A stretch of DNA of 17,526 nucleotides from Amoebophrya sp. AT5.2 (lineage: Eukaryota; Sar; Dinophyceae; Syndiniales; Amoebophryaceae). The notes below the pieces were generated by a model. It did no database searches. It was given only the letters and a program-made list of their open reading frames with translations, and was not told the origin of the DNA. Of this stretch, positions 1 through 17,526 are shown piece after piece (positions within the stretch are counted from its first letter, which is position 1; every line of letters starts with the position of its first letter). The stretch covers positions 1 through 17,526 of the forward strand of contig RXOD01004877.1 in the NCBI GenBank assembly GCA_005223375.1, read 5' to 3'. The position numbers were made by a program, and so were the translations under genes.

Positions 1-3000
1 GGACGTAGCTGCTGCTGTGGTGGAGCCTGCTGCATCAGTGGACGTACCTGCCGCCGTTGTGCTGGAGCTGGCAGCCGCAGTTGTAGGAGCTGCTGTCGTG
101 GTGCTGATGATCACCGGAGGCTGACCAACGAAGTTGTCTCCGATGCCGTAAATTTTCGGCAGCTGCGAATTCGGCAAGTTTAGCGCCTTGAACAGGAAGT
201 CGTGTAGTGCGGTGTTAAGGGTGGAGTTGAGCATTCCCGTGGGCCAGAGGGCGGCGGAAGCAGCTGGCAGCTCGGCGACCACTTCGGCGGAAATCTCCAT
301 CGCGACCGTCCCGTTTGGCATCACGGCCGATTTCGTTGAGTTGAGGCTGACAGTGACGGAATCGAAACCGAGCTTCGCCGTCTCCACCTCCTTATTGGAC
401 TCGGCAGCGACCTGAATCAGAGATATCGCCTGTTCCTCGTCTTCGCCCTCGCCCGTTTTTTCGCGGCCATTGAATTCGCGTAGCCTTCGCCTTCGCTCTT
501 CCATCAAGAAGGCTTCCATCGCGTCGTCGAAGTCGCCCTTCGAGTCGGGGTGGTCCAGCATGAAGCTGTGCATGCGCGACGTCAGGAGCAGGCTGGTTGT
601 CGCTTGGTTCAGATAGTCGTAAAAGTCCGCGCCCATCATGTTTAGTGCTGCGATAAACGCCGGATTCTGCAGTACGTCCATGTCCACATCCGCGTCAAGC
701 GTTGCGTACACGACAATCGCAAACGCGCGCGTGTTCGCTGTGATCGGCGTGGGAGTCGTCGTAGGCACCACTGTTGTCGGGGCCACTCCAGAAGTGGTCG
801 GGGCAGGGGTCGTTGTAGCCACGGAAACTAGGGAACTGGAGGCTTCACAGCTGAAGCCGGTTACGTCCACCACGTACGGGTGCTGCATCGTGAGCAAATT
901 GTTCTTCAACAGGTCCTTCAGTTCCTCGTGCTGATCGACGGGGAGTGCGCCATCCGGGTACTTTGCGAGCAGCTCGTCATACGCGGCCTGTGTGTTTGCT
1001 TGAATCCGGACGCCGGTGAAGCCCACGATTTTCCGCGTCGGATCGCCCGTCGTCGCGTCGGCCGGTCCGGGCAGCTCCACCAGCACATCTGGCGCCGGGT
1101 TTTTCAGGAAGTCCTTGATTTTCGTCTCTGCGAGGTTGTTGGCGTCCATCAGCGAGGCGAGGTAGTCGACGAGCGTCTGGTTGATCGCGTTCTCGAGAAT
1201 GGGGTTGTACGTCACGTAGTCGGTGTCGATGTCGGCGGGGAGCACCACCAGCTGGAAGTTGAACGCGCGGTCGACGTCCCCGCCGCCCCCGACCGGCGTG
1301 GTCGTCGCCGTAAAGGTGCTCGTGCCGACTCCGGGCACGGCGATCACCGAGGAGCCGGGCGTGCCGCCGTTCGCGGGGTCGGCCTTGCTCAAATCCACCG
1401 TCCCCGGCGCCACGCCGAACAGCTGCAGCGACGCCTCGACCAGCTGCGCCAGCAGCGCGGACCCCTGCCCGGCCGGGGCGTTCGAAAGCCACGCGACGTC
1501 CACCGCGTCCGCGGTGTTCTTGTCCGCAAAGTTCAGCGTGACCGAGACGCGTACCTCTGCGCCCTCGTACACGGTGCCGCCCAGGCTGCCCAACACCGGC
1601 GGCGTCGCCAGTACGTTCTGCTGCCCGCTCAATAGCGAGTCCGCGTCAAAATCGCCGTTCTTCGCCGTGTACCCCAAGATCGCCATGAAGTCGAACACCG
1701 TCTTGTTCACAGTCTCGGCCCAGCCCGAGGAGTCGAGGACCGCTCCCTGCACGTCGTCCGTGGTGGTGTCGATCGTGAAGGTGAAGGTTCGGATTATGGA
1801 GAACATCACCGGGGGCGGGGTGGTGGTGGTCGTCGTGACCGCGCCCTCCACGGCGCGGACCTCCTCGATCGGGTACGGGTACAAACCCAAACCACCGTTC
1901 GCCACCGGCTGCACCACCTCGCTCTCCAAAATCGCCAGCAGCTCCGCCTCCACGCTGGCTGCCAGCGGCTCGCCGCTCTCCCAATTCTGCAGGAATTCCG
2001 CAGTCACGGCGGTATCGTCGATGCCGATCGTGAACTCAACGTCCATCACCGGGTGCAGGCCCTGCACCACCGCCGGCGGGTTCCCGCTGTTCACGTCGCC
2101 CGTCAGCGTCGTGACCAGCGCGACGCTCACAGCCTTCATCTGGAGGATCTCGTCGTCCGCCGCGCCCCCCGGCAGCGACGGTAAAGATTTTTTCAGGTAG
2201 TCGAGAATCATGTTGCTGCACGCAATTTGGAAGTCGGCGTTGGCTTCGATCTCGGCTGCCGCGTCCGAAATCGTCGTGGAGCCGAGCAGCACGTTCACCG
2301 AGCGGCGGTAGGTGGGCGTGGTAGTGGTCGTGGTGGTGGTCACGAAGGGGTCGCTCCCCGCCACCGACACGACCGCGAGCACGAGCGACGCCGACAGGTC
2401 CACCACCATCGTCGCGGCGCCGGTCGCCGTGGACACGCTCTTGTACACGAGTAGCCCCTGCGTCTCCAGCGCGGCCAGAAAAAAGTCCTGCAGCTCGCCG
2501 AGCAGGGTGGCAGAAAGCGTAAAGCTGTGGTTGGGCCACTCCGCGACCAGGGCCGAGTAGTCCGCTTGGCCGGTGATGGTGAAGTTGTAGGTCACCTCCA
2601 GCGCCACGTCCTGCACCACCGTCCCATCGGCCAACACGGTCGGACCGGACTGCAGCACCCGCGGCACCGTCTCCTGCACCTGCACGCGCGTCTCGTCGAC
2701 GGTCGTCTCCGCGGTAATCCAGCTGGTGGCGGTCTCCGTCAGCGCCTCCTTAACCTTCTGCCCGAGCTCGTTGTCCTCCGCACACAGCGCGGTGACGTTC
2801 GAACTCGGACTCAGATACAGGGCGAGCGTCAGCGCGCGCGCGGTTTCGATGTCGGGCGGAGGGGTGGTCGTGCTCGTCGACGATGGCGCCGGCTGTGCGC
2901 CGACGTCCACCACCTGGAGGATCGGAGGCATCGCCCCGGTGGTCGCCAGCGTGCCCCCCCCGCCCACGTTGGTTGTGAACAGCTGCTGCAAAATCGCGTT

Positions 3001-6000
3001 CTGCACCGTATCCAGCGCCGTGTTCGGAAAAACGGCATCCAACGTCGCCACGTCCTTCGTCGCAAACAGCGCTTTCACCCCGAAGAGCGTTCGAAGTGCG
3101 TCGCTTCCGTCGGATGGATTGGTGGCCATCGTGGAGGAAATTTCTACGAGCGTCAGGTCAGTCAGCATCACCTCGTCGGGCATGATCAGCCCCAAGCTGG
3201 CGACGTAGTCCGAGAGCGTGTCGTTTATGGCGAGCTGCAGCTGGGCGCTCCCCGAGGCAGAAGCTGCACTGGTCGTGGCGGTCGACGGGTCATAGTTGTT
3301 CACCTCGCTGATCAGGTCCCCGACATCCGTGGTCGACGCCAGCAGCAACTCGGCGTCGAAGATGCGCATGATGCCCTCCGTCCACACCGGGGTGGTTCCA
3401 CCCATGGGATTCGTGGTGACGGTCGTGACCGTCGACTGGGGAATGCACACCGCCGTGTCCACCGCGATCACAACGTTCGGCGGCATCGGGTCCGAGCTGT
3501 CGATGCCCAGGGGGAGGTTTCCCAGAGTCGGGGCGTTCTTCAGCTCCACGAGAAGAAACTTCACGAACTCCCGCATGGAGCCCTCGTCCAGCGCTTGCGT
3601 CGGGGCCCAGATGTTGCTCAGCAGCGCGATTTCGTTCATCGTGAGAGAATACTCGAGCGTCGCCTGCATGGTCAGGTTGAAGGCCTCCCCCGTCGGGTTG
3701 TAGTTGGAGTTCAGGCTTCCCGGGTCCTTTTCGTAGTTCACGATCGAGACCAGCTCCAGCCCGACCTTCTGCGCGTCGACCGACTCCACCACGACGCCGG
3801 CGACCGGGTCTGACGGCGCCACGCCCACGGCCTGCAGGAACTTCCTCCCGGCGTCGCTCAGCGCCGTGGTGAGTTCGGCGTGGAGCGCCGTGGCGCCCGG
3901 CGCGAAGAACTCCGTAATGTCCGAGTCTTTCGCAAGCAGCAGGCTGAGGACGACCGTCCGCGGCGTGGGCGTCCGCGGGATGGGGGTCGTGGTGGTGGTC
4001 GTGGTGGTCGTTGGCGCCGGCAGCGACGTGATGGCGGACACGGAAAACACCTGCGGTACCTGCAGCACCGCGATGTTCTGCGACAGCAGCTGCTTCAGCA
4101 GGTAGTCGTCACTGCTGGACAGCGGCAGCGTGCCCCAGTACGGGGTCAGCGCGTCCACGTTCGGGTTCGCGCGGATGGCCACCGTGCAGCCCACGATCAG
4201 GTCCTGGCAGGCGGTGCCGTCGGCGTTGGTGGACGCGGTGGCCGCGAGTTCGTCGAGCACCACGTCCTCGATCGTGACATTCTGCAGCGACGGCGGCACC
4301 GCCTGCGCGTTGGGGAACGAACTCGCCAGAAGGTTGCTGATGTAGTCCGCCACAGTCTGGTTCACGGCTTCGCGGAGCAGCACGTCCGCAACCACGGAGT
4401 CCGGCGAGGTCACGGCGTCGATCTTCAGCTGGAGGTTGAAGCCGCGCAGCAGCGGCGCGGGCGTCGTCACAACGGTGGGCGTCGGCACGCCGATCACGCT
4501 GCCCACGCTCGTCACGAAGATCGCGCTGCCCGAAGAAGAAGGAGAACCCCCACCTCCACCTCCAGCGGCCGCGCCGCCGCCTGCTGCGGGATTGCCACTC
4601 GCGTCGGGGGGCGGGCTCACGAGACCCTTGCCCTGGACCCAGCTGTTCAGGAACTGCCCCAGCAGGGCCGACTGTTGCGCCGTCGTGTTCGTCCCGGGCG
4701 GCCAGGTCTGCAGGATCTCCGTTCGCGCCGCGTCTGGCGCCAGCTCCAGCACTGCGTCCGCCCGCAGCCGGGCTTTTGTGACCAGGACGTTCGCGTCGTT
4801 TCCGTCCGTGTCGTTCACGACCAGGATTTCGTTCGCGACCACGCTCAGCGGCTCCACCGCCAGCTCCTTCACCTCCACACTCGCGACTACGTCCGTCAGC
4901 GTCTGCGCGAAGCCCATAACCGTCTCGTTCACGGCCTGCCGGAAGTCGGGGTTGGCGCACACGTCGTGCGTGACGTTCAGGCCGTCGGTGACCGCGACGT
5001 CGAAGACCAAACTGTACAGCGTGTCGGGTACGGAGTTGTCGACCGCGGGCGGCGCGAACATCGAGAGCTCGGGCGGGGCAATGATATACGCGGCCTTCAC
5101 CTCCTTCACCACGGACACGAACGAGGCAGTGCTGGAACCGGTGGTGGTACCGCCCGAACTGCTGACCGTGCTGCTCGAGCTAGTACCGGAAGAAGAAGTA
5201 GAAGAGGATATCCCGTACAGGTTCAGGTACATGAGCTGCTTCAGGTCGTCGTTCGGCACCAGGTCGATCGCATTGCCCGGCCACACCGTGGACTTTATGG
5301 TGTCCACCGTGGGCACGTACGCCGTCCAGTGCGCGAAGGCGTTGAACGTGGCGAGCGCCTCCCCCGTGGTGGCCCCGGTCGCGCCGTCGGTCAGCTGTTC
5401 CACGCTCAGGACGTGCAGCTTCATCGCGTCGAAGAATTTCGCCGGGGAGACGTAGGCCTCATCCACCTTTCCGTCGTCGGTGAGGTAGTCCACGAACGTA
5501 TCGTTCACCATCTGCAGGAAGTCTGTGTTCAGTGCCAGCGCCGGCACGTCCACAAGGTTGGGCGCCGCGGTTGTGCTGCTGTCGTCTTTGAGGAGGAGTT
5601 TGAACAGGATCCCCCTCGCGAACTCCTCCGTCGGGGGCGGGGTCGTGGTGGTGGTGTACACTATTCCCTGCGGGGAATACTTCACGCCAACCACGCCGTC
5701 GATATCCGCAACCGGCACCGCGTTGATCCCCTGCGTGAGAAGCGACTCCAGCAGCTGCTGCTCGCCGGCGGCGAGCGGCGAGCAGCACGGCCACGCGGCC
5801 TCGAGGATGGACTTCACCGAAGCGTTCGGCACGAGGAACGTGACGGTGGTGCGCAGGCTCACCTTGTTGCTGCCGGTGGTCACCTCCGCAATGTCGCTCT
5901 CGACTTCCGTCATCGTGACGGAGAGGTAGGAGGGCTCCGCGGGGTCGAAACAGTTCAGGCCCATTTCGTCCAGAAAGGCGGCGGCGGTGTCGTTCATGGC

Positions 6001-6096
6001 GACAGCATACGCTGGATCGTTCGTGATGTCCACGGGATCCTTCCCGGTGGGCAAAATCAGCTCCGCAACCCAGATGCGCTGCGTCTCGGAGGCCAC
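1..6096 (-). CDS. Exon G: giant array of Thr-linked repeat units (3' end outside window)
   Basis: 2,032 codons with no in-frame stop. I checked every codon of this frame; it opens after a TGA at 6151-6153. It encodes eleven diverged units of about 140-200 residues joined by low-complexity linkers (positions under the repeat-array entry). Each unit has a strand, a helix often reading A(V/I)N-x-T-x-x-D-Y-L, a strand, then a second strand, an aromatic-Pro step and a second amphipathic helix. The pattern looks like a duplicated beta-alpha-beta, perhaps SEA- or ferredoxin-like; the fold is inferred. Many N-x-S/T sites and Thr/Pro linkers suggest a secreted, glycosylated protein. An insertion in the last unit (about 430-520) carries EERRRRLRE, an acidic run and SLIQ. 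The acceptor is CATCGACAG before GTG, phase 0, giving the domain start RIWVAELIL. No transmembrane segment is seen before the window ends. Confidence 0.85.
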   Translation of the reverse strand, partial: MASETQRIWVAELILPTGKDPVDITNDPAYAVAMNDTAAAFLDEMGLNCFDPAEPSYLSVTMTEVESDIAEVTTGSNKVSLRTTVTFLVPNASVKSILEAAWPCCSPLAAGEQQLLESLLTQGINAVPVADIDGVVGVKYSPQGIVYTTTTTPPPTEEFARGILFKLLLKDDSSTTAAPNLVDVPALALNTDFLQMVNDTFVDYLTDDGKVDEAYVSPAKFFDAMKLHVLSVEQLTDGATGATTGEALATFNAFAHWTAYVPTVDTIKSTVWPGNAIDLVPNDDLKQLMYLNLYGISSSTSSSGTSSSSTVSSSGGTTTGSSTASFVSVVKEVKAAYIIAPPELSMFAPPAVDNSVPDTLYSLVFDVAVTDGLNVTHDVCANPDFRQAVNETVMGFAQTLTDVVASVEVKELAVEPLSVVANEILVVNDTDGNDANVLVTKARLRADAVLELAPDAARTEILQTWPPGTNTTAQQSALLGQFLNSWVQGKGLVSPPPDASGNPAAGGGAAAGGGGGGSPSSSGSAIFVTSVGSVIGVPTPTVVTTPAPLLRGFNLQLKIDAVTSPDSVVADVLLREAVNQTVADYISNLLASSFPNAQAVPPSLQNVTIEDVVLDELAATASTNADGTACQDLIVGCTVAIRANPNVDALTPYWGTLPLSSSDDYLLKQLLSQNIAVLQVPQVFSVSAITSLPAPTTTTTTTTTPIPRTPTPRTVVLSLLLAKDSDITEFFAPGATALHAELTTALSDAGRKFLQAVGVAPSDPVAGVVVESVDAQKVGLELVSIVNYEKDPGSLNSNYNPTGEAFNLTMQATLEYSLTMNEIALLSNIWAPTQALDEGSMREFVKFLLVELKNAPTLGNLPLGIDSSDPMPPNVVIAVDTAVCIPQSTVTTVTTNPMGGTTPVWTEGIMRIFDAELLLASTTDVGDLISEVNNYDPSTATTSAASASGSAQLQLAINDTLSDYVASLGLIMPDEVMLTDLTLVEISSTMATNPSDGSDALRTLFGVKALFATKDVATLDAVFPNTALDTVQNAILQQLFTTNVGGGGTLATTGAMPPILQVVDVGAQPAPSSTSTTTPPPDIETARALTLALYLSPSSNVTALCAEDNELGQKVKEALTETATSWITAETTVDETRVQVQETVPRVLQSGPTVLADGTVVQDVALEVTYNFTITGQADYSALVAEWPNHSFTLSATLLGELQDFFLAALETQGLLVYKSVSTATGAATMVVDLSASLVLAVVSVAGSDPFVTTTTTTTTPTYRRSVNVLLGSTTISDAAAEIEANADFQIACSNMILDYLKKSLPSLPGGAADDEILQMKAVSVALVTTLTGDVNSGNPPAVVQGLHPVMDVEFTIGIDDTAVTAEFLQNWESGEPLAASVEAELLAILESEVVQPVANGGLGLYPYPIEEVRAVEGAVTTTTTTPPPVMFSIIRTFTFTIDTTTDDVQGAVLDSSGWAETVNKTVFDFMAILGYTAKNGDFDADSLLSGQQNVLATPPVLGSLGGTVYEGAEVRVSVTLNFADKNTADAVDVAWLSNAPAGQGSALLAQLVEASLQLFGVAPGTVDLSKADPANGGTPGSSVIAVPGVGTSTFTATTTPVGGGGDVDRAFNFQLVVLPADIDTDYVTYNPILENAINQTLVDYLASLMDANNLAETKIKDFLKNPAPDVLVELPGPADATTGDPTRKIVGFTGVRIQANTQAAYDELLAKYPDGALPVDQHEELKDLLKNNLLTMQHPYVVDVTGFSCEASSSLVSVATTTPAPTTSGVAPTTVVPTTTPTPITANTRAFAIVVYATLDADVDMDVLQNPAFIAALNMMGADFYDYLNQATTSLLLTSRMHSFMLDHPDSKGDFDDAMEAFLMEERRRRLREFNGREKTGEGEDEEQAISLIQVAAESNKEVETAKLGFDSVTVSLNSTKSAVMPNGTVAMEISAEVVAELPAASAALWPTGMLNSTLNTALHDFLFKALNLPNSQLPKIYGIGDNFVGQPPVIISTTTAAPTTAAASSSTTAAGTSTDAAGSTTAAATS

Positions 6097-6395
6097 CTGT
6101 CGATGAAGATGATGTCGTGGATGTTGTGGAATGTTGTGGGACCACCTGCATCATCGTGCGGATGACGACCACGACAGGGCTGCAAGCCGTCGTGCTACCA
6201 ACGATAAGATGGGAACGCATGATCATGTCCATGCTAGACGTAGTATCCATAGTACCTACATGTGCATCTACATCAACAGCACGTAGGTAGCTGCAAGATG
6301 GGAAAAAAGTCGCCGCTACTTTTCCAGTGAAGTAAAGAGTTTGTAGTTTTACTATTCTGGATCTGGAGCAGCAGGAGGTGCCGCTGACCTTAATT

Positions 6396-6445
6396 GACGC
6401 TGTCGCTTTATCATGCAAGACGCTGTCGCTTCCTTTATCATGCAA
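6396..6445. repeat. Short tandem duplication in the F/G intron
   Basis: Two adjacent copies, 6396-6418 (23 bases) and 6419-6445 (27 bases). Both start GACGCTGTCGCTT and end TTTATCATGCAA or nearly so; the second has about four extra bases. They account for the start of a spurious minus-strand open frame ending at 5459. Confidence 0.85.
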
Positions 6446-7165
6446 AAGCGCTTCATCTAGTTCTAAACGATGACCATGACGACTCGTAGTATTAAAGCGA
6501 GTGCGTTAGCGACAAATCACAAATTAAATCGTCCTCCCATTCTTCATGCAAATTTCTGCGATCGCGACGGCGCATCCGTTGAGGCATCTCCGCGAGCCGG
6601 CACACCCGCTCACGCCTGAGCTTCAGAAGATAACGGCGGGGAAACATGCTCAACTGTCCCTGCTGCCCACCACTTTAGAGTCTTCGTCAATTATGATTCA
6701 TGATGTGGATTAACAAGATCCTCAGTTCGATATCGATTCTACACCAATTCGGTCACGAAAAAGCCATGCCCTAGCTAGTACGCAATGTTCGTTGCACATC
6801 ATCGGCCTCCTCGAATTTACATGCAGCGATGTTGGAGTTGGAGGTTTGTAAAAATACGTAGGGTAAGGGTAGTGCTGTGCCTGTACGTGGTTCGTTCGTG
6901 GTTGTAACGCTACGTTAAGAGGCCTGCTGCATTGCGTAGACTGATACGGAGGAGGTCACGGAGACGGATTTCCAGTTTCGTTTCGTTTCGTTTTACGATG
7001 AGAATGAAATGTTCTGATTGTCATGCGAAGGTAGATGAGATTGGCTACGACTTCTACTAGGGGGAGAAGATGTCAAAAGGTTCATTTTTCATCATCCGTG
7101 CCCGGAAAAGGCACGACGTCGGCAAGAAAATCTAAACAAAAAGTAGATCACCCTGCAGCTCCTTC

Positions 7166-7196
7166 CAGAGCCTCGCTGAAAGACCACGAGGCTCTG
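7166..7196. repeat. 10-bp perfect hairpin in the F/G intron
   Basis: CAGAGCCTCG (7166-7175) and its exact complement CGAGGCTCTG (7187-7196) flank an 11-base loop. There is no T-run after it, so it does not look like a bacterial-type terminator. Role unknown. Confidence 0.8.
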
Positions 7197-8073
7197 CTGC
7201 TTGATGCATGCGAGCAGGAGCTAGTAAGCGTGACAATAATTCTTGAAAAAGAAATTTTGAAAGCTGTGCAAATCGAAGTCAAAAATTTCATACCTGCTAG
7301 GATCGGACGACAATAATTCTTTTTCTTGGAACCAACACAGAATGGAAAAAGTTGCTGCTGGTAAAAGGCTCGCTAAGTTTATTTCAGTGCCAGCGCGAGT
7401 CGGCTCCGCTCCCACAACAAGAGGAGCGGGAGGAGGAACAGTCCAACGAACTGCGCATGCGCTCTATACAAAAAAACTATACTTGTATACCGTCCTCTAC
7501 TTGATCTTGAATGTTGCGTAGCTATTCTTATTTGTATTTCAAGATACGTCTACGAGAGTCAGAGTCTCAAAAAAGATGAACAGTCAAAAAATATTCCGCG
7601 TCAGACAAGGGCTGTCTCATCGGCCGCTCCTCTTGTAAAAAGGCTAGAATCAAAGTAGTAGTCACACCCATAAAACAACAGTCGCTGATGGGCTGATGTC
7701 TCGAGTGTGCTTTCCTCTGCAACTGTATTGAAATAGAATCTCGAAAAAGTCTGCAACCTGGAGAGGTCTTCCCCTTCTCTGCTGTAAAGTCTAGAATAAA
7801 AGTTGTAATAAATCAAGGCTTTTCTTTTTGCACGACATAAGATTCGACTAAAAAGGAATTTGGCACCGCGCGTAGCGTTTAACGGTTAATGAGGTTGTCC
7901 ATTGTTGAGCACCAACTGACTCTCTGGCAGCAAAAGTGAGCTACTTCGTCCTAATTGTATTGTTCTTCTTCCTCTGCCGCTGGTCTGTGTGTCTCGTGGT
8001 GCCAGATAGTTTTTGGGCAGTTCGGGTCGATTCCTCCTAGGCCAAACAAAATGCAATTAGTGCGCTGCAGTAC

Positions 8074-8771
8074 CGAGATCGCCGCGGTTGTGGTTGTTGT
8101 GGTGGTGGTGGTTGTGGTTGTGGTGGTTTCGCCGCCCAGGAAGTACGAGACCACGCACGACGTTATTCCGTTGGACCACATGGCTGCTTCCATCAGCTTT
8201 TGCAGGTACAGTCGGTCTCCTTCGGTCGTCAGTCCGCTCGCCGGCCAGGCGTTCGTCGCGGAGGCGATGTCCGGCACCACCGCCTCGTAGGTCCCGGTCA
8301 CCTGCACGCGCTGTTCCCCCGGTACGCTCGACGCGACCGACAGCAGCAGCAGCAGCAGCGGCGTGGTCGACGCCACCGTGCTTGTCGCCTTCAGCACCGC
8401 CTCGGGCGCCATCGTCAGCGGCGCCATCTGGTTGGAGAGGAAGGCGGCCACTCCCTCCTGTATCGCCCGCTCGAACTCAGGCGAGGCCACCAGCTGACCA
8501 GCGTCTTGCGTGTTCGGGACGTCCAGCCCGATCTCGTACTTGCGCACGAAGTTGGCCTGCCCGTAGGTGGAGCTCGTCGTGGTGGTGGTCGTGGTGGTTG
8601 TGGTCGAGCAGTGCCGCCACTGGTCGATGCCCAGGACGTTGATCTGGGGGAGCATGTAGATGCCGCCGACAATGCCAAACTGCGTCGCGATCTGCTTCTG
8701 CACGGCGGAAGACAGGAGCGCGGCCTCGAGCACGAGCTCCATCGGCTCGGGCATCTCTATGAGGGGACCAG
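8074..8771 (-). CDS. Exon F: first Thr-linked repeat units
   Basis: About 232 codons. They start with the helix (MELVLEAALLSSAVQKQI) of a short first unit whose first strand lies at the end of exon E. A run of ten threonines follows (8575-8604), then a full second unit with helix FERAIQEGVAAFLSN, a Leu run encoded by six CTG codons, and an AWPAS step at about 8245. A run of fourteen threonines (8086-8127) closes it. The acceptor is ATACCTCCAG before CTGG, phase 1. The 3' end is uncertain: I place it at TCG then GTACTG (8073), phase 0, because the residues after the threonines up to the TAG at 7951 do not resemble any unit. A stop (TAA) directly precedes an ATG at 8791-8793. A separate gene starting there is possible, but it would lack the first strand of the unit. 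Confidence 0.65.
8341..8358. repeat. (CAG)6 microsatellite inside exon F
   Basis: Six CAG triplets on the plus strand, read as six CTG leucine codons on the coding strand, inside the second Thr-linked unit. This is a likely length-variable site. Confidence 0.85.
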
Positions 8772-9116
8772 CTGGAGGTATGGTCACAGGCATTTATTCC
8801 AACGAACTCCAGCTGCTGCACGCCATGCATAAACAAGTGGACCACTATGAATGTTGTTGGAGTTGTTGGGGATTGTGTTCAGGAGGAGGCTCACCCGGGA
8901 GATCGAGATCATACAGCCATTGACAGGTAGAGGCGGGCGGCCATAGAAAGCCTTAGCCTTCATCTGCCGAAGGCGGTCGTCCTCGTCATGTCATAGATAG
9001 GTACAAACTTTTAATTGATTCATAGAGCCTGAAAGTAGGCATAGGGCCACAAACGGGAGCGCCTTCTTCTAAGGTGGCGACGTAAAAATGTTCAACATTG
9101 CTAGTTGCCTACTTGC
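8772..9116 (-). other. Intron E/F (345 bp), GC-AG type
   Basis: The donor is G then GCAAGT, the usual GC-donor context, and the acceptor is ATACCTCCAG, phase 1; the join reads VGPAGYAGPL. Both borders carry the 9-base word CCAGCTGGT (minus strand; plus-strand ACCAGCTGG at 8767-8775 and 9121-9129), whose core CCAGCTGG is a palindrome. Just outside or inside the borders ATGCC(G/T)GTGACCAT also occurs twice. Splicing anywhere within the repeat would give nearly the same protein. Alternatively this is an intergenic gap before a new gene starting at 8793. Confidence 0.58.
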
Positions 9117-11319
9117 CGTAACCAGCTGGTCCCACCATAATTTCGATGGTCACCGGCATCTCGACCACGCCGGCCGGCAGGGCCTGGGTTTTGGCTAGCT
9201 GCTCTCGGGACAGAGCAAGCAGGTTGGTCGGGGACGAGGCAACGGGGGCGCTGCTGGCTGCAACTGCTTGCATTTGTGATTGTGATTGGACGAGCGGGAC
9301 GAGGTTTGCTGCGGGTGCGGACGAAGGGGCAGCGACCGCGAGAGGCGCGGTAACCGGAGCAGCGGCGAGGTCTGCGAGCATCGGAGCTACAGCGCCTGCG
9401 ATGAGAGGCGTTTGTTGTTGCGCAGCTCCGGAGCCCGCCTCCGCACGTGAGGACGCCCGCACGGCTGCGCTTTCGCCTTCTTGAAGAAATGAGGGTGCGG
9501 GTCGTGCTGGCCGCCGGCTGGAAAGTAGAAAGTGGTCTGCATCTTCGTACGGTGGTGCCTCGTTTTCATCTTCGTTCCCTAGCGACAAGTGGGCCTCTGG
9601 CACCCCGAGTTCCTGAGCGAGCTCCGCACTCAGAATCTCAGGTCTTCTCAACACCCTGCGCGCCATGTCCAGCTGCACAAAACTCGGAATGGTTTGCATC
9701 CGCTGACGGACCGCGGCGGCGGCAGCAGCGTGGGCAAGGTGCTCATCAGCGTGACCCTCGACACCTCCATCTGAAGACGCAGGTCGCAAGGGAGATGATG
9801 CGACCTCGTAACCTACCTCGACTTCCTCATCATCCGACGAGGCCACTTGTTCCCCGTCAAATGAGTCCGCATCTGTCTCGATCTCGCTGTCCTCACCACC
9901 CGCGTGATCGGCGGTCTTCGAGCCGCTTTCCGCATCCTCGGCCTTGTCTTCAAGTAGATCCGGGCCTTCTGCCACGTCGGAGGACAAGCTCGTCGTTTGC
10001 AGCAGGGGTTGCACTCCCACCTTCCCTATCGTTTTCAGCTGCGTGAGCGTGGGGGCTTTGGCTATCTCCGACTCCGTTGCGTGAGCGTGTGCCTTCATCT
10101 CCGCACTGGGGCCGCGCCTGCTCTTCTTTGCTTCCGCGTCCACCTTTTTCCCCGTTTGCTTTTCCACCCCGTCGGACTGTGAGGGCGTCGCGATGCTCAT
10201 CTTTAGCGTGTTTTTGCTTTTTATCAATCTCTTCTCGCCGCCGGCAACGAGGGAAACCTGCTGCAGCTGGTTGACGAAGTTCGTGACGTTGGGCAGCTCC
10301 GGCCCGCCGTAGGGGTTGGTTGCCGCGCCCGGGTTGCTGTAGTTCCCCCCGAGGTTGGTTAGGTTCGCGGCCGCGAAGGGTGCCACGAGGATCATTCCCG
10401 GGTCCAGCCCCATGAACAGGACGGCCGAGAACGCCTTCTGCACCTGCTCCTTCACCTTGTCCACCGTGAGCAGGTCCGCGGTGGTGAGTTGCGTCGCGGC
10501 GGTGACCTCCTCCCCCGCCGCCGTCTGCGTGATGATGCTGGTCGTGCGCGCGCTCGTGTCCAGGTACACGAGGACCCGCTCCCGCACCGCGCTCTGGTAG
10601 ATGTTCAGCTTGATCGCCTCTTCCCGGGCCTTCTGTTTCTTCGCGTCCTCCGCCTTCACCGCCGTCTCCGCGGTCGCCGCCAGCTGGGACTGCTTCACGC
10701 CCAGCTCCTCCTTCTTCTTCTTCCACTTCTCGTCCCAGAGCTTCTTCGCCTCCTCGGTCTGGTTGTTTTGCGCGCCGGACTTGGTGATCAGCTCCTGCTG
10801 CTTCTTCACGTGGTTCTCGTGATTCGCCTTCAGCGTCACCTCCGCCGCGGCCGTGGAGTTGTTGTCCTTTTCCACCAGCTCGGCCTTCTTCGCGTTCCAC
10901 TCCGCCTCCTTCGTCTCCAGCTCCTCCCGCTTTGCCTGCATCGCGCTTACCGCTTTGGCGGACTCCTCGTTCGCGTGTTTCGCGTTTGCCTCGGCCTGCA
11001 TACTGGCCTTGGCGATCGTCTCCGCCTGTGCGCTGCTCTCGCCCTTCGTCTGCTGCTCGGACTTGTGCTGCTCCTCCGCCAGGGTCTTGGCGTTCTCCTC
11101 GGCGTTGGTCTTCACCTTCTCGGCGTCCTCGGCCTTCGCCCGCGCCTCCTCCAGCAGCGCCTTCATCGCCTCGGAGGAGTCGGAGGCCTTGAAGCCCTTC
11201 TCCGCCGCCTCGGCGCCGGCAGCGAGCGCGATCTGCTCCTTCTCCGCAACCTCGTGGGCCTGCTTCGCATCCGCCTCGGCCATCCACTTCACCTGCTGCT
11301 CCGCGTCGGCAGTCTCCGC
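9117..11319 (-). CDS. Exon E: end of coiled coil, alpha/beta half-domain, acidic disordered region
   Basis: About 734 codons. Residues 1 to about 235 are coiled coil (AETADAEQQ, then many Ala/Glu/Lys heptads). Residues about 238-323 look globular: a strand RERVLVYLD, a helix VDKVKEQVQKAFSAVLF, and GLDPGMILVAPF, like one half of the repeat units in exons F and G. The rest is low complexity: lysine-rich, then very acidic (about 453-506, with DSEIETDADSFDGE and SSDDEEVEV), an Ala run, then an Ala/Pro/Ser-rich tail. Two short motifs, SFVQ (9673-9684) and SFLQ (9481-9492), follow arginine-rich spots. The last residues (MPVTIEIMVGPAG) form the first strand of the next repeat unit. The acceptor is TTTCTAAG before GCG. 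The donor is TACG then GCAAGT, a GC donor, phase 1. Unspliced, the frame stops at 9109. Confidence 0.75.
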
Positions 11320-11338
11320 CTTAGAAACCAACCGACCT

Positions 11339-11368
11339 CGTCCGACTGCGAGGACGACGAGGCCCTTA
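11339..11368 (+). repeat. Left arm of intron D/E inverted repeat
   Basis: Starts CGTCCGAC and ends GGCCCTTA. It pairs with 11699-11721 on the opposite strand and has a 7-base extra segment in the middle. It lies about 20 bases inside the exon E border. Confidence 0.75.
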
Positions 11369-11698
11369 CGTAATTCTCTAGTACTCCTAGTACCAATTCC
11401 AATCACAATCTTCTATTCGGCGAGGGCGACCGTGACCGATGGATCGATGGTCATGGTTTCGCTCCTAGTAGATGCGGCTATCCTGCTCGCACACCTGCAT
11501 CTGCACTAGCACAAGCTGCTATACGAAGTAACTACTACATTCATCGTGTAATAAAGAAAAAGAAGAACATAGACCCAACTGCAGCACTTCTTCCACTTAG
11601 CTACGCGACGCAGTACAAAGAGACCCGCAAAATGCAGTTTGCATGAATTTTTGAACCGCCCCCACCAGCGCGTGGTCGGATCCCCGGAGCAGGAATAT

Positions 11699-11721
11699 TA
11701 AGGGCCCCTCTCGGTCGGACG
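11699..11721 (-). repeat. Right arm of intron D/E inverted repeat
   Basis: On the minus strand it starts CGTCCGAC, continues CGAGAGG and ends GGCCCTTA, matching the arm at 11339-11368. It lies about 40 bases inside the exon D border. Confidence 0.75.
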
Positions 11722-11760
11722 CGATCATCGAAGCCGCGCCATATTCTTGTCTGCTTCCGC

Positions 11761-12854
11761 CTGGCTGTATTTCACTTCGAGTTCCGCGTTTGTTTTGTTC
11801 CTGGCCTCGTCCGCTGCTTTCGCGGAGTCCATCTGGGCCTGCTGCTTGACGTCGGATTCCGCCTGCTTTTCCTTTGCCTCGATCTCGTTTTTCCGCGTGA
11901 CGTTTTTCGTGTCCTGTTCGTCCAGCTGCTGTTGGTGCAGTATTGTCTTCGCGTCCTCCTCGATTGCTTGTGACTGCGCCACCTTCATCGCCGCCTCCTG
12001 CTGCTTTGCGTGTGCCTGGATCTCTTTCCCGCTCCACTCTTGCTGTCGCTTCGTGTAGTCTTCCACCAGTTTCAGGGCCTGCTCCTTCTTTTGCGACGCC
12101 AGTGCCTCCTGCTCCTTCAGTTGCTTTTCTGTTTCCGCGCTCATCCGCTTCTCCTCCCCTTCCGCCTGCTGCTTCGAGAATTGCTCCGCCGTGTTCAGGT
12201 CGTTCTGCGTTTTCTGCGAGTCCAGTTTGCTGTCGATTTCCGCCTGCTGCAGCTGCGCGTCCGCGTCCGCCACGTCCTGCTTCGTCTGCTGCTCCGCCTT
12301 TCCCGCCAGCTCCGCGTCCACCTTCGCCTGGTCCGCCTTCTCCTTCCAGGTGGTCGACTTCACCTCCGACTCCGCGATGTTCGCCTCGGACTGTTTGCGC
12401 ACCGCCTCGGCCAGCGTCTTGTTTTTCTCCTCCTGCAGCCCGATCTTCGCGGTCATCTCGGCGGTGCGCACGCCCTCCTGGTAACTCACGTCAGCCTTTG
12501 CGTTCACCTCCTCCTCGCGCAGCGCGTAGTGCGCCTCGTTCATGTTCATCACGTGCCGGCTGCCCGCCGCCTTCGCGGCAGCTAAAGCCGCCGCCTCGTT
12601 CGTCGCGGACTCGTTCTGCCGCGCGGCCTGGATGGTGGCGTGGTGGTCCGCGATCTCCGCATCGGACCAGTTCCCGACCGTCCACCGCAGGTTGCGCCAG
12701 TCGGTCTCGTTCTGCTGGTCCTCCGCCACCGACGCCTCCGAAGCGTTGCCGACCGCCCAACGAGACTTTAAAGACTCCTCAGCCTTCAGCTCGTACTCAG
12801 CCTGCTCCTGCTGCGCCTGCTCACGCACGCTAGCCATCTCCTGCTCCAGTTTCT
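11761..12854 (-). CDS. Exon D: coiled-coil rod segment
   Basis: About 364 codons of Ala/Glu/Gln/Lys-rich sequence, predicted coiled coil throughout. Near the N-terminal end are two similar short stretches with a tryptophan (SLKSRWAVGNASEASVAEDQ and NLRWTVGNWSDAEIADH), an internal duplication of an R-W-x-VGN motif. The acceptor is the clean CACTTCACCGCAG, followed by AG AAA CTG. It completes a phase-1 codon from exon C, and the join reads LAEETEKLEQEM. The 3' end is placed at CAG then GCGGAAG, a GC donor in phase 0, because no GT donor occurs before the in-frame TGA at 11725-11727. The same AGGCGGA word stands at the start of exon E. The ATG at 12836 region (MASVREQ) could be mistaken for a gene start, but the frame is open upstream to the acceptor. 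Confidence 0.75.
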
Positions 12855-13169
12855 CTGCGGTGAAGTGCGTGGAGCTATGGAGGAGCGATCATCGAGAAAA
12901 CTTCGTCAACAGCAAACGCCGAAGGACATCAGCAACTCACACAATCAACGTAATTTACGTTGTGTTTTCGTTTTGAACAACGTAATATAGGAAGTTTATT
13001 CGACCTGCAGTAACACCTGCATGTGCTTTACGGTATTTACATCACAGACACAGTGACGAATATAAGAGATAGAGGAAATAAGCCACATCAGTTTCTTGTT
13101 CTTGATGAAGATGATGTAGGACACATAAAGAACTACTTTCTTACCCATTGATCAATCTAGGATCTTCAC
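12855..13169 (-). other. Intron C/D (315 bp)
   Basis: GT-AG intron, phase 1: the donor is GTGAAG and the acceptor is CACTTCACCGCAG. GGTGAAG occurs at both ends in opposite orientation (plus strand 12859-12865, and the complement at the donor). A near-perfect palindrome CAACGTAA-T-TTACGTTG lies at 12946-12962, and CAACGTAAT recurs at 12978-12986. ACACCTGCATGTGC (13013-13026) matches a word in intron D/E. No gene is seen inside. Confidence 0.72.
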
Positions 13170-14031
13170 CTGTTTCTTCCGCCAAGTCTTCTTTCGCTTT
13201 TTCTTCCTCCAACCTTCGTTGTTCCGCTGTCGCTTCGGCGTCCAGTCGCTGTTGCTTCCAGTCTGCCGCAGTAGCTTGGTACTCGCTGATCTTGGTCTGC
13301 GAAAAGTGGATCCGGGCGTTCGCGGTGTTGTTTTCCATTTTCATCTTCTGTTCGTGGTGCTTCAGCACTGCCACCCGCTGCGCCTTGTCCATCACTTTCT
13401 GCGTTTCTTCGTTGAACTTGAGCTGCAAGTTCGTGTTCTTCTTGTGCAGCTTTTCCGCTTCCTCGATCGTTTTCCGCTCCAGCTTCGCGTCCGTCTCGTT
13501 CTGTTTCAGCGCGGCGATATAGTTCGTGTGCTCTAGTTCGATCGCCGTCGTATTGGCCTGCACCTTCTCCAGGTTTTCCTGCGACGCCTGCACCTTGGTC
13601 TCCGCTTCCAGGGTTGTTTTCTCCGAGATCTCCGCCTGCTCCTGGATGTGCGCGTTCATCTTTTCCTCCACCTCCGCTGTCTCCGCCGACGCGTCCTTTT
13701 CCGATTGCTCCGCCTGCGCCGCCGCGGCCGCCGCGTTCGATTTCGTGGTCTCTTCCGCGGTGATGTGCTGGTTCAGCTCGGTCTGCGCCCCGTCTTCCTT
13801 CACCGCCATCTCCTCCTTCCGCATTTTGTAGTGGTCCTCGAACATGTCCTCGACCTTTTCCGCGCCCTCCAGCTGCAGGTTCAAAACGTCGATCTTGTCC
13901 AGAAGCTCGTCCTTCGTCCTGCTTAGGGCGTTGATCTGCTGCACCTGCGCGGCGTTGATGGCAAGCACGTTCATCTTCGCAGCCTCCACCACGTCCGCCG
14001 ACTGCTTCGCCGCTGTTTCCGCCTTGGTCGG
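13170..14031 (-). CDS. Exon C: coiled-coil rod segment
   Basis: About 287 codons, almost entirely charged and helical. They are rich in Glu, Lys, Gln and Ala with heptad-like hydrophobic spacing (INALSRTKDELLDKIDVLNL, then long EAE/AEQ stretches). No proline-rich breaks and no catalytic motif are visible. It continues the rod started in exon B. The acceptor is placed at TGTAAG before CCG, giving the join DQAK-PTKAETAAK; an alternative AG nine bases downstream (CCAAG before GCG) would drop three residues. The donor is ACAG then GTGAAG, phase 1, matching the phase-1 acceptor of exon D. A GTAAGA a little downstream is out of phase with exon D. If unspliced the frame would stop at 13141. Rods of this type form dimers or filaments; no specific partner can be named. 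Confidence 0.75.
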
Positions 14032-14053
14032 CTTACAGCGCGACCGGAAAAAA

Positions 14054-14062
14054 TAAATCCAC
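14054..14062 (+). repeat. Inverted-repeat arm, intron B/C (exon C side)
   Basis: TAAATCCAC. The complementary copy is at 14490-14498, at a similar distance from the other intron end. Confidence 0.6.
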
Positions 14063-14489
14063 GTACTACTTTATTTAGAAACAATATTGCAGTTACAGTT
14101 TTCTGACTACACTGCCAGCGGATCGGCACCGTATTTCCTCCAGCTACAAGACGAAACCTGAACCCGAAACGGCTCTTCACACTGATGCAATGAATTGCAA
14201 CTTGTGCTTGTGCACAGCACAGAATATAAGCCAAAGGCCAAGCCCAAGCCTGGACGTCGCGCAGACATCATAGATACCTACACGCCAGACGTCAGAAGTG
14301 CTCAGTACTCTTTTGCCTTTCCAAGAGACGAGCACGCCGCTCTTTTCTTTTCTTCATCAACAAATAAAGAAGATTCATACATTATGACAAGTCAGGAGTG
14401 ATAGGTTTCTCCTGACAAGCCGAACTGAACCTCAGAACCGGAAGGGATTTCTTTCCTAGTGGATGACTAATGTGGCTGTGCTGGTGCGT

Positions 14490-14498
14490 GTGGATTTA
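14490..14498 (-). repeat. Inverted-repeat arm, intron B/C (exon B side)
   Basis: TAAATCCAC on the minus strand, paired with 14054-14062. Confidence 0.6.
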
Positions 14499-14522
14499 AA
14501 TTTGTGAAAGACGCGGCTTAAC

Positions 14523-15740
14523 CTTCGCTTGGTCAGCCTCCTTCTGGTAGGTTTCTGCCTTTTCTAGGTTGTCGGCGAGCGTGAGATTAGCACCGATGTA
14601 CGCCTTTTCCGCCTCGTCCGCTTGCGCGTTGGCGACCTGTATTTGTGCGTTATACTGGTCGGTGGCCTTTTGCAGTTCTTCCAGCTTCTGGAGGGCTTTT
14701 TCCTGCGCCTTGAGCATCAGTTGCTTTCTGGTTGCGGCGGTTGCCGCGGCGTTTCCGAAGTCCGATTCCTTCTTCACGTAGATCTCGATCCCGCAGAGCA
14801 TGACCGCGTTCTTTGTTTCGATGCGCAGCGTCTCCGCGCCGAAATCGACGGCCAGGTCCGTGCCTTCGTCGGGGTCCGACGAGATCGCTGACGGAAACGG
14901 CAGCCGCACGTCGTCGTCGATGACGAGCGTGGCGTCCTCCAGCGAGTCCTGGTACTGGTCGCTCGCGCCCCACACCACCACCCGCGTCACGAACTTCTTG
15001 TCCACCGCGACGCTCCCCGCGGTGGGCTTGATCCGCGCCTGCCACCAGGCGTCGGTGCTGGTCTTCGTGAAGGCGCAGGTGCCCGGATACTTCGTGGTGC
15101 CGTGCAGGAAGTGCAGCGGGAACGTGGCGTTGCGCCCCTGCTCGATGTCGATCTGCGTCGCCTCGAGCTCCCCCGCGGCCAGCTTCCGCTCGCTCGCGTG
15201 CATGAAGATGCGGATGCCGCACAGCTTCAGCCGGGAGGCGGGATTGCCGGTGATGCGGACCTTGCTCGCGGTGCGGTCGACGATCACTTCGGTGCCGTAG
15301 GTGGAAATCTCCTTCGGCAGCTCGTACTCCGCGCCGTCCACGGAGAGACTCGCGCCGTCGAGCTCCTCCTGCCCGGTCTCCCCGTTGTAAAGGACGATCC
15401 GGGAAATGAAGACCACCCCCTCCTTCACCTCCGCCTCCCACCAGGGCTGCTCGTCGCCGGAGGTGGCCTTTGTGATGCTGCAGGTGCCCTCCTCCACCGC
15501 GGTGGGCTCCCCCGCGTAAAACAGGGGGAAGGAACCCACGTAGGCGCCTTCCGTCGAGCTTTGGCTCGCCTGCAGCTCCACGCCGAGCAGCTGCCGCTCC
15601 TGCCCGGAGCCCTTAAAGTGCTTGCACACGGGCACCACGTCCTCGTTCTTGTCCCCCACCCCGATCTTGTAGTTGAACCGAGCCTGGCCCGCGTCCGGAG
15701 AGTCCGCTGGCGGGATCGAGCAGCCTCCCGGCAGGCCGTT
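14523..15740 (-). CDS. Exon B: end of second cysteine module, two F-type-lectin/discoidin-like domains, start of coiled coil
   Basis: 406 codons. Residues 1-40 finish the cysteine module begun in exon A (LPGGCSI...ARFNYKIG...VVPVCKHF). Residues about 46-182 and 183-327 are two similar beta-sandwich domains. Each has a WW step (WWEAEV, WWQARI) followed by a strand of the ISRIVLYN / VTRVVVWG type, and each ends in the closing strand LCGIRIF or LCGIEIY. This pattern is typical of F5/8 type C and fucolectin (F-type lectin) domains, which bind sugars or lipids outside cells. Residues about 330-406 are Ala/Glu/Lys/Gln-rich and read as coiled coil (QEKALQKLEEL). The acceptor is TGTAAG before AAC; a TGA in the same frame just upstream (in AGC TGA TCC) excludes reading through. 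The donor is AAG then GTTAAG. A GTG codon at 15659 opens a shorter frame, but it sits inside the cysteine module. Confidence 0.78.
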
Positions 15741-16293
15741 CTTACAGGATCAGCTATCACCCATCTGGAGTTGGAGTAGCGTCTACTTTAGTACCCGTAG
15801 CAAACAATAAGCGCGGCGATCTCACCTTCACCAGACAAACAGACCGATTGACCGATGGGCGATCTGACACCGAAGCGACAATGACCAGAATCATAGACAG
15901 TGACACTCAGCCTGGGCGGGACATTGCGACGGGTAACGGTAAGTGCTACGAAGTCTCGGTTGATTCACCGCCCTGCTCCGCCCCATCCTGCTCCGAATGG
16001 CGGAGGTTCATCCCGCTCACCTCACGGCCGCCAGCCCCAGCCAGCACGCTCAGTAGTAGGTACGTACGCAGATGATCTTCGTCCTCCTCCTCGTTTTCCG
16101 CCCTAGTACTACAACAATGAATGCACTTATCCATGATTCTCCACGAGTTACCCGTGCCACGCCAAGCCCAAGCCCAAACACGACAAGTTCTAGTAGCGGG
16201 ACGCTGGTGCGCGCTCCTTCGCTAGAGATGCTGCCAGAGGTGGCAGAGGTCATCGAGATGGGCTACATAGCTAGGCTCGTAGCCTTCCTTAAC
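15741..16293 (-). other. Intron A/B (553 bp)
   Basis: The GT donor is GTTAAG and the acceptor is CTGTAAG, phase 0. Both borders carry TAAG(G/A)A. Near the ends is an imperfect inverted repeat: plus-strand AGCTATCACCCATCT (15752-15766) against the complement of 16251-16272 (AGCTATGTAGCCCATCT). A second small inverted repeat, GGCTAC...GTAGCC, spans 16261-16284. The interior holds GCCAAGCCCAAGCC (16161-16174), also found in intron B/C, and TCATAGA (15891). No open frame here looks like a gene. Confidence 0.7.
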
Positions 16294-17424
16294 GTTAATT
16301 CCCCCACTGGCGTATGTGAGCCAGGACTGCGGCGCGCGGTTGAGTTGCTGGAGCGCTTTTGTACACTCCTCCTTCGTCGCGATCACCAGGTCTTCGGACT
16401 TGCAGACCTCGCCCTTTTTGCCAAACTTGAAGGTGTAGGTCTGGGTCGAGACCGGGCGCGGGCGGATGCAGATGGGCCGCTTGTCGTCGTCGGCGAATCC
16501 GACCCCGGTGTAGTAGTTCATGAACACCGACTCGTCCAGCTCGTCCTTCGGCACGGAGCAGCCGTTCGGCATCGAGGGGTTGCCCAGGTCGTCGGACTTC
16601 CACCACTTGCTGTTGTCGTAGGGGATCCCGAGCGACACCAGGGCGAGCTGGCAGCTCTCCGCGGTCTTCAGCACCTGGCTCGCGTCCGCGCACGTCTCGC
16701 CCGCCGCGAGCTGGGCGTACTCGTACTGCACGTCGGTGGCCTCCTTGAACATCCGCACCTTCTCGATCCGGAGCGAGGTGTTCCCCACCTCCTCGATGGT
16801 GATGTTCTTCCCGCCCGGGTTCAGCACCGAGTGCGTCACTACGGAGCTGTCGCCCTCGTTCGCGTACACGGTGAACACTTTCGGCATGGCCTTGGGGCCG
16901 TCGTCCGAGCCCGCGGTGGAGTCGTACAGGGGGTTCTCCACCTCCTGCTCCGTGCCGTCCAGCAAAAATTTCGCCCCCGCCGGATACTCGCAGCCGTTCA
17001 CGTCGTCGTTGCAACCGTCGAGGCGGCACACGCCGTAGGTGATCTCCACTTTGGTGATGTCCGACTCAAAGATGCGCGAAATGCCGCCCACAGCGTCGGT
17101 TTCCGCCGCGGTGTTGCCCCCGTACCAAGCGTGGTTATTCAACCCGCGGCAGGCGCGGTGCACGTGCCCCATGTCGCACGGCTCGGCATAAACCACGCCC
17201 GCGGCCTGGACCAGCGCCGCGTCAGTCTGCTTCGTTGCCGTCTTCAGGTCGCAGGTTTTTGTGGCCTCGGTCCAGCACACGGCCCTGCATTGCGCAAACC
17301 TTCTGCACTGCTCCACGCACGCGTCGAGCGAGGTTAGAGTGGACCCCTGGGTCGTTTCGGGCACGTCCGCGGTCCCCGGCGCGAGGCACTGGTCGAACGC
17401 GGGTGAGCAGACCCGCAGTGGCGC
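16294..17424 (-). CDS. Exon A of giant mosaic protein: PAN/apple-like domain plus cysteine modules (5' part outside window)
   Basis: About 377 codons, open throughout. Residues about 6-82 look like a PAN/apple domain: spaced cysteines around the segments DACVEQC, AQCRAVCW and KTCDLKT, closing at YAEPC. PAN domains bind protein or carbohydrate outside the cell. Residues about 85-232 are beta-rich with three cysteines in CRLDGCNDDVNGC, possibly a galactose-binding-like sandwich. From about 233 to 323 there is one complete cysteine module (GETC...ESCQLAL...NGCSV...FMNYYTG...PICI). A second copy starts at about 328 (GEVC...EECTKAL) and is cut by the exon end. I chose the start at 17424 because the minus strand reads a pyrimidine-rich tract then CCGCAG before GCG. 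The frame stays open to the window edge, so an unspliced 5' extension is possible. The donor is AAC then GTTAAG. The ATG start is not in the window. Domain names rest on motif reading only. Confidence 0.72.
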
Positions 17425-17526
17425 CTGCGGTTTATGGAGAGACCAGATGGTAAGTGGGTAAGTGGTAAGTGAAATCTTTTGGGCGCTTTTTGGAGCCAGT
17501 ACGAGCAGAAAAGCGGCTGTCCGCGG
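17425..17526 (-). other. Probable end of an upstream intron (window edge)
   Basis: Read on the minus strand this stretch holds three direct copies of a CACTTACC-type word (plus-strand GGTAAGTG at 17449-17456 and 17457-17464, GTAAGTG at 17465-17471), then a pyrimidine-rich tract and CCGCAG at the exon A border. It has no stop in the exon frame, so it could be coding (reading AAFLLVLAPKSAQ, vaguely signal-peptide-like). The composition and repeats favour intron. Confidence 0.5.

Follow-up and report, generated by a model that had tools for sequence, protein, structure and literature searches.

Repeat units at the locus

The stretch analysed here, 17,526 nucleotides of contig RXOD01004877.1 from Amoebophrya sp. 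AT5.2 (hereafter the window), carries on its reverse strand an array of repeated domains that alternate with linkers rich in T, S and P. Positions 1-6150 (-) form a single stop-free frame of 2050 codons, open at the contig end and here called exon G. Twelve units were cut, 11 from exon G and one, F2, from a frame further upstream (Table 1). The repeats are real, because each unit, when scored with a profile built from the other 11, reached 20.1-58.3 bits and exceeded all of its own shuffled versions (200 per unit, 197-200 of them scored; best 5.7-14.2 bits). All 12 units were recovered in this way, with identities to G4 of 13-28% among the window units, and the repeat domain proposed in an earlier note on this DNA thus holds together as a set of units that align to each other.

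Table 1. Repeat units and associated features of the window
Feature	Positions	Strand	Remarks
T/S/A-rich stretch off contig end	1-132	-	first 51 bases match the tandem array of C2587 (upstream end)
Unit G11	133-732	-	long insert, placed between helix 1 and strand 2
Unit G10	847-1272	-	N-Q-T at 1174-1182
Unit G9	1318-1791	-	N-K-T at 1699-1707
Unit G8	1837-2307	-	helix 1 without N-x-T
Unit G7	2356-2838	-	helix 1 without N-x-T
Unit G6	2893-3372	-	N-D-T at 3217-3225
Unit G5	3442-3960	-	helix 1 without N-x-T
Example of T/S/P-rich linker	3961-4017	-	84% T+S+P
Unit G4	4018-4446	-	N-Q-T at 4354-4362; structure predicted
Unit G3	4489-5025	-	N-E-T at 4921-4929
Unit G2	5200-5616	-	N-D-T at 5497-5505
Unit G1	5671-6078	-	N-D-T at 5986-5994
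Unit F2	8131-8547	-	separate upstream open frame; structure predicted
F1, weakly matching C-terminal portion of another unit	8551-8751	-	E 0.0026, profile positions 121-168 of 179

Related units in the genome

As queries against the same genome, neither G10 nor exon G in full returned any other contig at E <0.1; the F2 frame as query led to two contigs, C2587 and C2119, the first of which holds an open frame of 3500 codons (3332 read in one locus, the remainder in another). The 12-unit window profile found 12 domains in five frames of these contigs and none in 100 shuffled frames, and a four-round profile search over the loci examined yielded 39 good units. Half a unit was found in a fourth contig, C1484 (E 3.7e-8). 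Among the units of C2119, dN/dS was 0.14-0.22 in all seven pairs compared, some of which share a unit; these units are therefore under purifying selection and the protein that they encode is under constraint.

These results bear on a non-protein explanation, namely a chance open frame in G+C-rich repeats, which could appeal to the base composition (59-68% G+C per kilobase over positions 1-6000) and to long antisense frames of 783 and 452 codons that are also open. We consider it extremely improbable, given frames as long as 2050 and 3500 codons, a profile relationship that extends across contigs under a shuffle control, the confident predicted fold of G4 described below and, as a point that speaks strongly against it, the dN/dS of about 0.2 in C2119.

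The gene of the window and that of C2587 are probably one gene split by the assembler, as judged from their ends, which match each other over 46 bases without a difference (51 bases at 98%) within a TST(D/G)AA-type array, with agreeing strand and frame; this array matches itself at several places and the overlap falls short of proof. If they are one gene, it would contain at least 28 units. In locus L040 (C2119:1-10000), several units are spread over more than one open frame, with the break close to strands 2 and 3, as would fit introns at corresponding positions of successive units.

Searches for a known family

The beads form a sequence family for which none of the libraries searched gave a convincing match. 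No Pfam family was found for exon G, and SEA was found neither in exon G nor in the F frame. Ten of the 12 window units scanned singly (G11 being scanned within exon G only) and four frames of C2587 and C2119 gave only matches below the cut-off, with no SEA in the latter. An alignment of 33 units from the window and the related contigs (A4; six of the 39 were omitted, mainly those with long inserts) gave, at E up to 1, weak and scattered matches to 13 families (best E 0.001, listed without family cut-offs), SEA not among them. Weak matches such as RNase_II_C_S1 (E 0.00075) and Muc_B2 (E 0.013) were rejected, each being below its own cut-off and confined to one unit. In keeping with the earlier note, which named no family and thought the domain possibly undescribed, no convincing Pfam match was obtained.

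Protein-database searches with whole exon G, with the 12-unit alignment and with G9-G10 scored 7959, 7997 and 7993 candidates, respectively, and returned no relative, words from T runs having possibly displaced relatives in the first of them. Against PDB sequences, the 12-unit profile had no match at E 10, and the best match of the 33-unit profile, a nucleoporin (E 0.071), was dismissed as chance. G10 had no relative among GTDB genome contigs and viral contigs (bacteria, archaea, viruses). The SEA profile PF01390 found nothing in the whole genome, an uninformative result since no control gave a signal either. Comparison of the unit profile with SEA sequences by hhalign gave probabilities of 0.02-0.12% (a weak test, with only 3-5 SEA sequences), and the observed score was reached by 199/300 and 78/200 column shuffles, so that no profile-profile similarity to SEA was found; a further comparison agreed with this. 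Titles and the beginnings of abstracts on SEA domains in dinoflagellates or protists and on dinoflagellate mucin-like repeats named no such protein, most subscription journals being outside the coverage.

Predicted fold

The structure of G4 was predicted with a pLDDT of 91.3 and has the order strand-helix-strand-strand-helix-strand that had been read from the translations; the F2 model has the same order at lower confidence (pLDDT 74.4). The predicted unit fold is SEA/ferredoxin-like (beta-alpha-alpha-beta-beta-alpha-alpha-beta), in agreement with the original guess of a SEA-like or ferredoxin-like domain. In the models, the elements form the ferredoxin-like alpha/beta sandwich (beta-alpha-beta-beta-alpha-beta) that is described for the SEA domain (PMC6954182 and PMC12143179, both cited throughout from excerpts). 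The G4 model aligns to the MUC16 structures 7sa9 and 8vm1, and the structure ranked first for F2 is Gpr126 403-503. The viral structure library gave nothing at E 0.001. The predicted fold type is not new; the sequence family appears to be new.

A somewhat unlikely alternative is that the beads are a ferredoxin-like domain that is specific to the lineage and not related to SEA, in a protein that would still be a giant mucin-like surface protein but whose bead-on-string plan would have been reached independently. It is consistent with the missing sequence link to SEA, with the Foldseek lists, which contain no SEA among their matches, and with the commonness of ferredoxin-like folds, ribosomal protein S6 and Cas5f tying with the SEA rows for G4. 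Ribosomal protein S6 is, like the other ferredoxin-like folds, intracellular and comes without T/S/P linkers or tandem arrays.

Marks of the domain

Two marks had been proposed from the sequence, an aromatic-Pro step before the second helix and N-x-T in the first. W followed by P was confirmed at 5791, 2536 and 8245, and an aromatic residue occupies the aligned place in 12/12 window units (W in ten, F in one, Y in one) and in all 33 rows of alignment A4 (29 W, 3 Y, 1 F). Pro follows it in 8/12 window units and in 21/33 rows of the alignment; the aromatic half of the step is therefore constant, whereas the Pro is not fixed. The seven N-[DEQK]-T sites all translate as claimed. Helix 1 carries N-x-T in 7/11 window rows (7/12 counting G11) versus none of the 21 rows from the two related contigs with residues there, several of which have K or R at this place. 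N-x-T as a mark of the domain is thus not supported, and the sequon is a feature of this stretch of the gene, since window rows carry it and 0/21 others do; as far as the alignment goes, the aromatic residue is the better mark. In exon G outside T-rich stretches, N-{P}-T occurs 17 times versus 7.6 expected from composition, and N-{P}-S twice versus 7.0; the bulk of the N-{P}-T excess corresponds to the seven helix sites. N-glycans on the bead would fit the helix 1 sequon.

The strand 2-strand 3 loop

Hairpins were counted in 40 units (17 from C2587, 11 from C2119 and 12 from the window), one of which, L039 residues 589-868, was joined by hand from two sub-threshold pieces. Sites of the type [RK]R or RxxR occur in the strand 2-strand 3 loop of 10/11 long-loop units versus 1/29 short-loop units. 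Pairs of the [RK]R type number 19 in the hairpins, one in the strand 1-helix 1 part, three in the following loop and none in the last part; within-hairpin shuffles gave a mean of 8.4 and reached 19 in 0/1000, and RxxR (12 versus 5.7 in shuffles) was reached in 14/1000, the kinship of the units inflating these counts. The window hairpins contain no basic sites in this loop, and the sole R-x-[KR]-R place in exon G is the polybasic RRRRLR at 478-495 (-) in the insert of G11.

In animals, some SEA domains undergo cleavage between strands 2 and 3, either autoproteolytic or through furin, after which the pieces remain associated (PMC6954182); in MUC16, a disulfide joins these two strands (PMC12143179). 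By analogy, we infer that the long-loop basic units outside the window may be cut by a convertase-type protease. The likeness to the cleaved SEA or SEA-like domains of MUC1, Notch2 and GPR126 thus lies in these basic sites and in the first rank of Gpr126 for the F2 model; however, window hairpins are without such sites, cleavage here is a prediction, and a GSVVV-like motif (G[ST][VIA][VI][VA]), as expected for MUC1-type autoproteolysis, is absent from the six frames scanned (8646 residues, the F2 frame being outside the scan). The motif [ST]-[FLI]-[LIV]-Q was tried as a cleavage mark and dropped (8 versus 2.9 expected; 6/500 shuffles reach 8).

Linkers and comparison with animal mucins

The 11 linkers of exon G total 278 residues (85 T, 34 S and 40 P), with a T+S+P content of 40-84% between beads. 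Those of C2119 and C2587 contain lengthy runs of T together with PSGASSTTTTTT or TSTGAASSTAEP arrays, and tandem units alternate with T/S/P-rich sequence in exon G, C2587 and C2119 alike. A mucin-like PSGASSTTTTTT array also follows the last beads of C2119 (L040, about 8920-9520). Provided that the units count as SEA-type, this is the layout of a MUC16-like mucin.

Indeed, MUC16 has 156-residue repeats in which SEA domains are interspersed with P/S/T-rich sequence (PMC12143179), and both proteins would combine SEA-type beads with such linkers. The three human MUC16 chains compared carry N-T-T in the putative helix 1, according to our own placement, and mouse 1ivz is without it. The two systems differ in that there is no profile-level sequence similarity to the window units, in that MUC16 SEA1-12 are >70% identical (PMC12143179) versus the low identities of the window units to G4 given above, and in that no membrane anchor was seen here. 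The 5' end of the gene lies outside the window.

We therefore favour, as a fairly probable reading, that exon G and the frames next to it code for the middle part of a giant glycoprotein, secreted or on the cell surface and of MUC16-like build. Many globular, SEA-like beads, each about 140-200 residues long, would sit on T/S/P-rich strings that are probably O-glycosylated. With the linker and bead plan of MUC16, the protein would form a surface coat or an adhesive layer, extended and mechanically tough, whose beads would space and stiffen the glycan-covered linkers; a convertase-type cut, as in some animal SEA domains, may occur in the subset of out-of-window units with long basic loops.

It is unlikely that the protein is instead a parasite adhesin or host-recognition protein whose beads are variable ligand-binding modules and not spacers. 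The high divergence of units within the gene, the PAN domain encoded upstream and the small 50.7 Mb assembly with a dinoflagellate spliced leader would suit it, compact dinoflagellate genomes being known from Amoebophrya (PMC7789003, cited from an excerpt). However, the dN/dS values of the C2119 units, to which this measure was confined, give no sign of diversifying selection.

Beyond the MUC16-like coat protein itself, we hold as rather doubtful the wider proposal that giant SEA-type mucins, including cutting in the strand 2-strand 3 loop as in Notch, GPR126 and MUC1, occur in alveolates, far outside animals. To our knowledge, SEA mucins have been described from animals, in which they protect surfaces. 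If the proposal is true, either the SEA mucin is much older than thought or a mechanosensitive bead-on-string design arose twice. SEA-like dinoflagellate arrays invisible at the sequence level would widen the search for such coats and protease switches, and the family profile could annotate long unnamed T-rich dinoflagellate proteins.

Genomic setting

Upstream of the repeats and on the same strand, the region 16222-17526 (-) contains a PAN domain (25.7 bits versus a Pfam cut-off of 21.4) and may be the start of the repeat gene. Between this part and the repeats, long frames rich in A, K, E and Q at 9109-14070 (-) are coiled-coil-like by eye. The region 14496-15749 (-) consists of two mutually similar halves, presumably of discoidin/fucolectin type from their look by eye, without a Pfam match of that kind, and has a relative at C70:32722-33144 (E 4.1e-4). 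The pattern that we take to be the dinoflagellate spliced leader (DinoSL) occurs in the assembly (2759 contigs) in 18 exact and 15 one-mismatch copies and, read backwards, nowhere in it. DinoSL is a dinoflagellate trait (PMC7789003), and its presence marks the genome as that of a eukaryote of the dinoflagellate lineage. Finally, an element of 60-110 bases at 17430-17526, the upstream end of the window, recurs with 81-95% identity at nine other loci and is a dispersed repeat, perhaps an introner or a transposable element, so that the translation there is probably non-coding; seven of the nine other copies lie <300 bases from a contig end.
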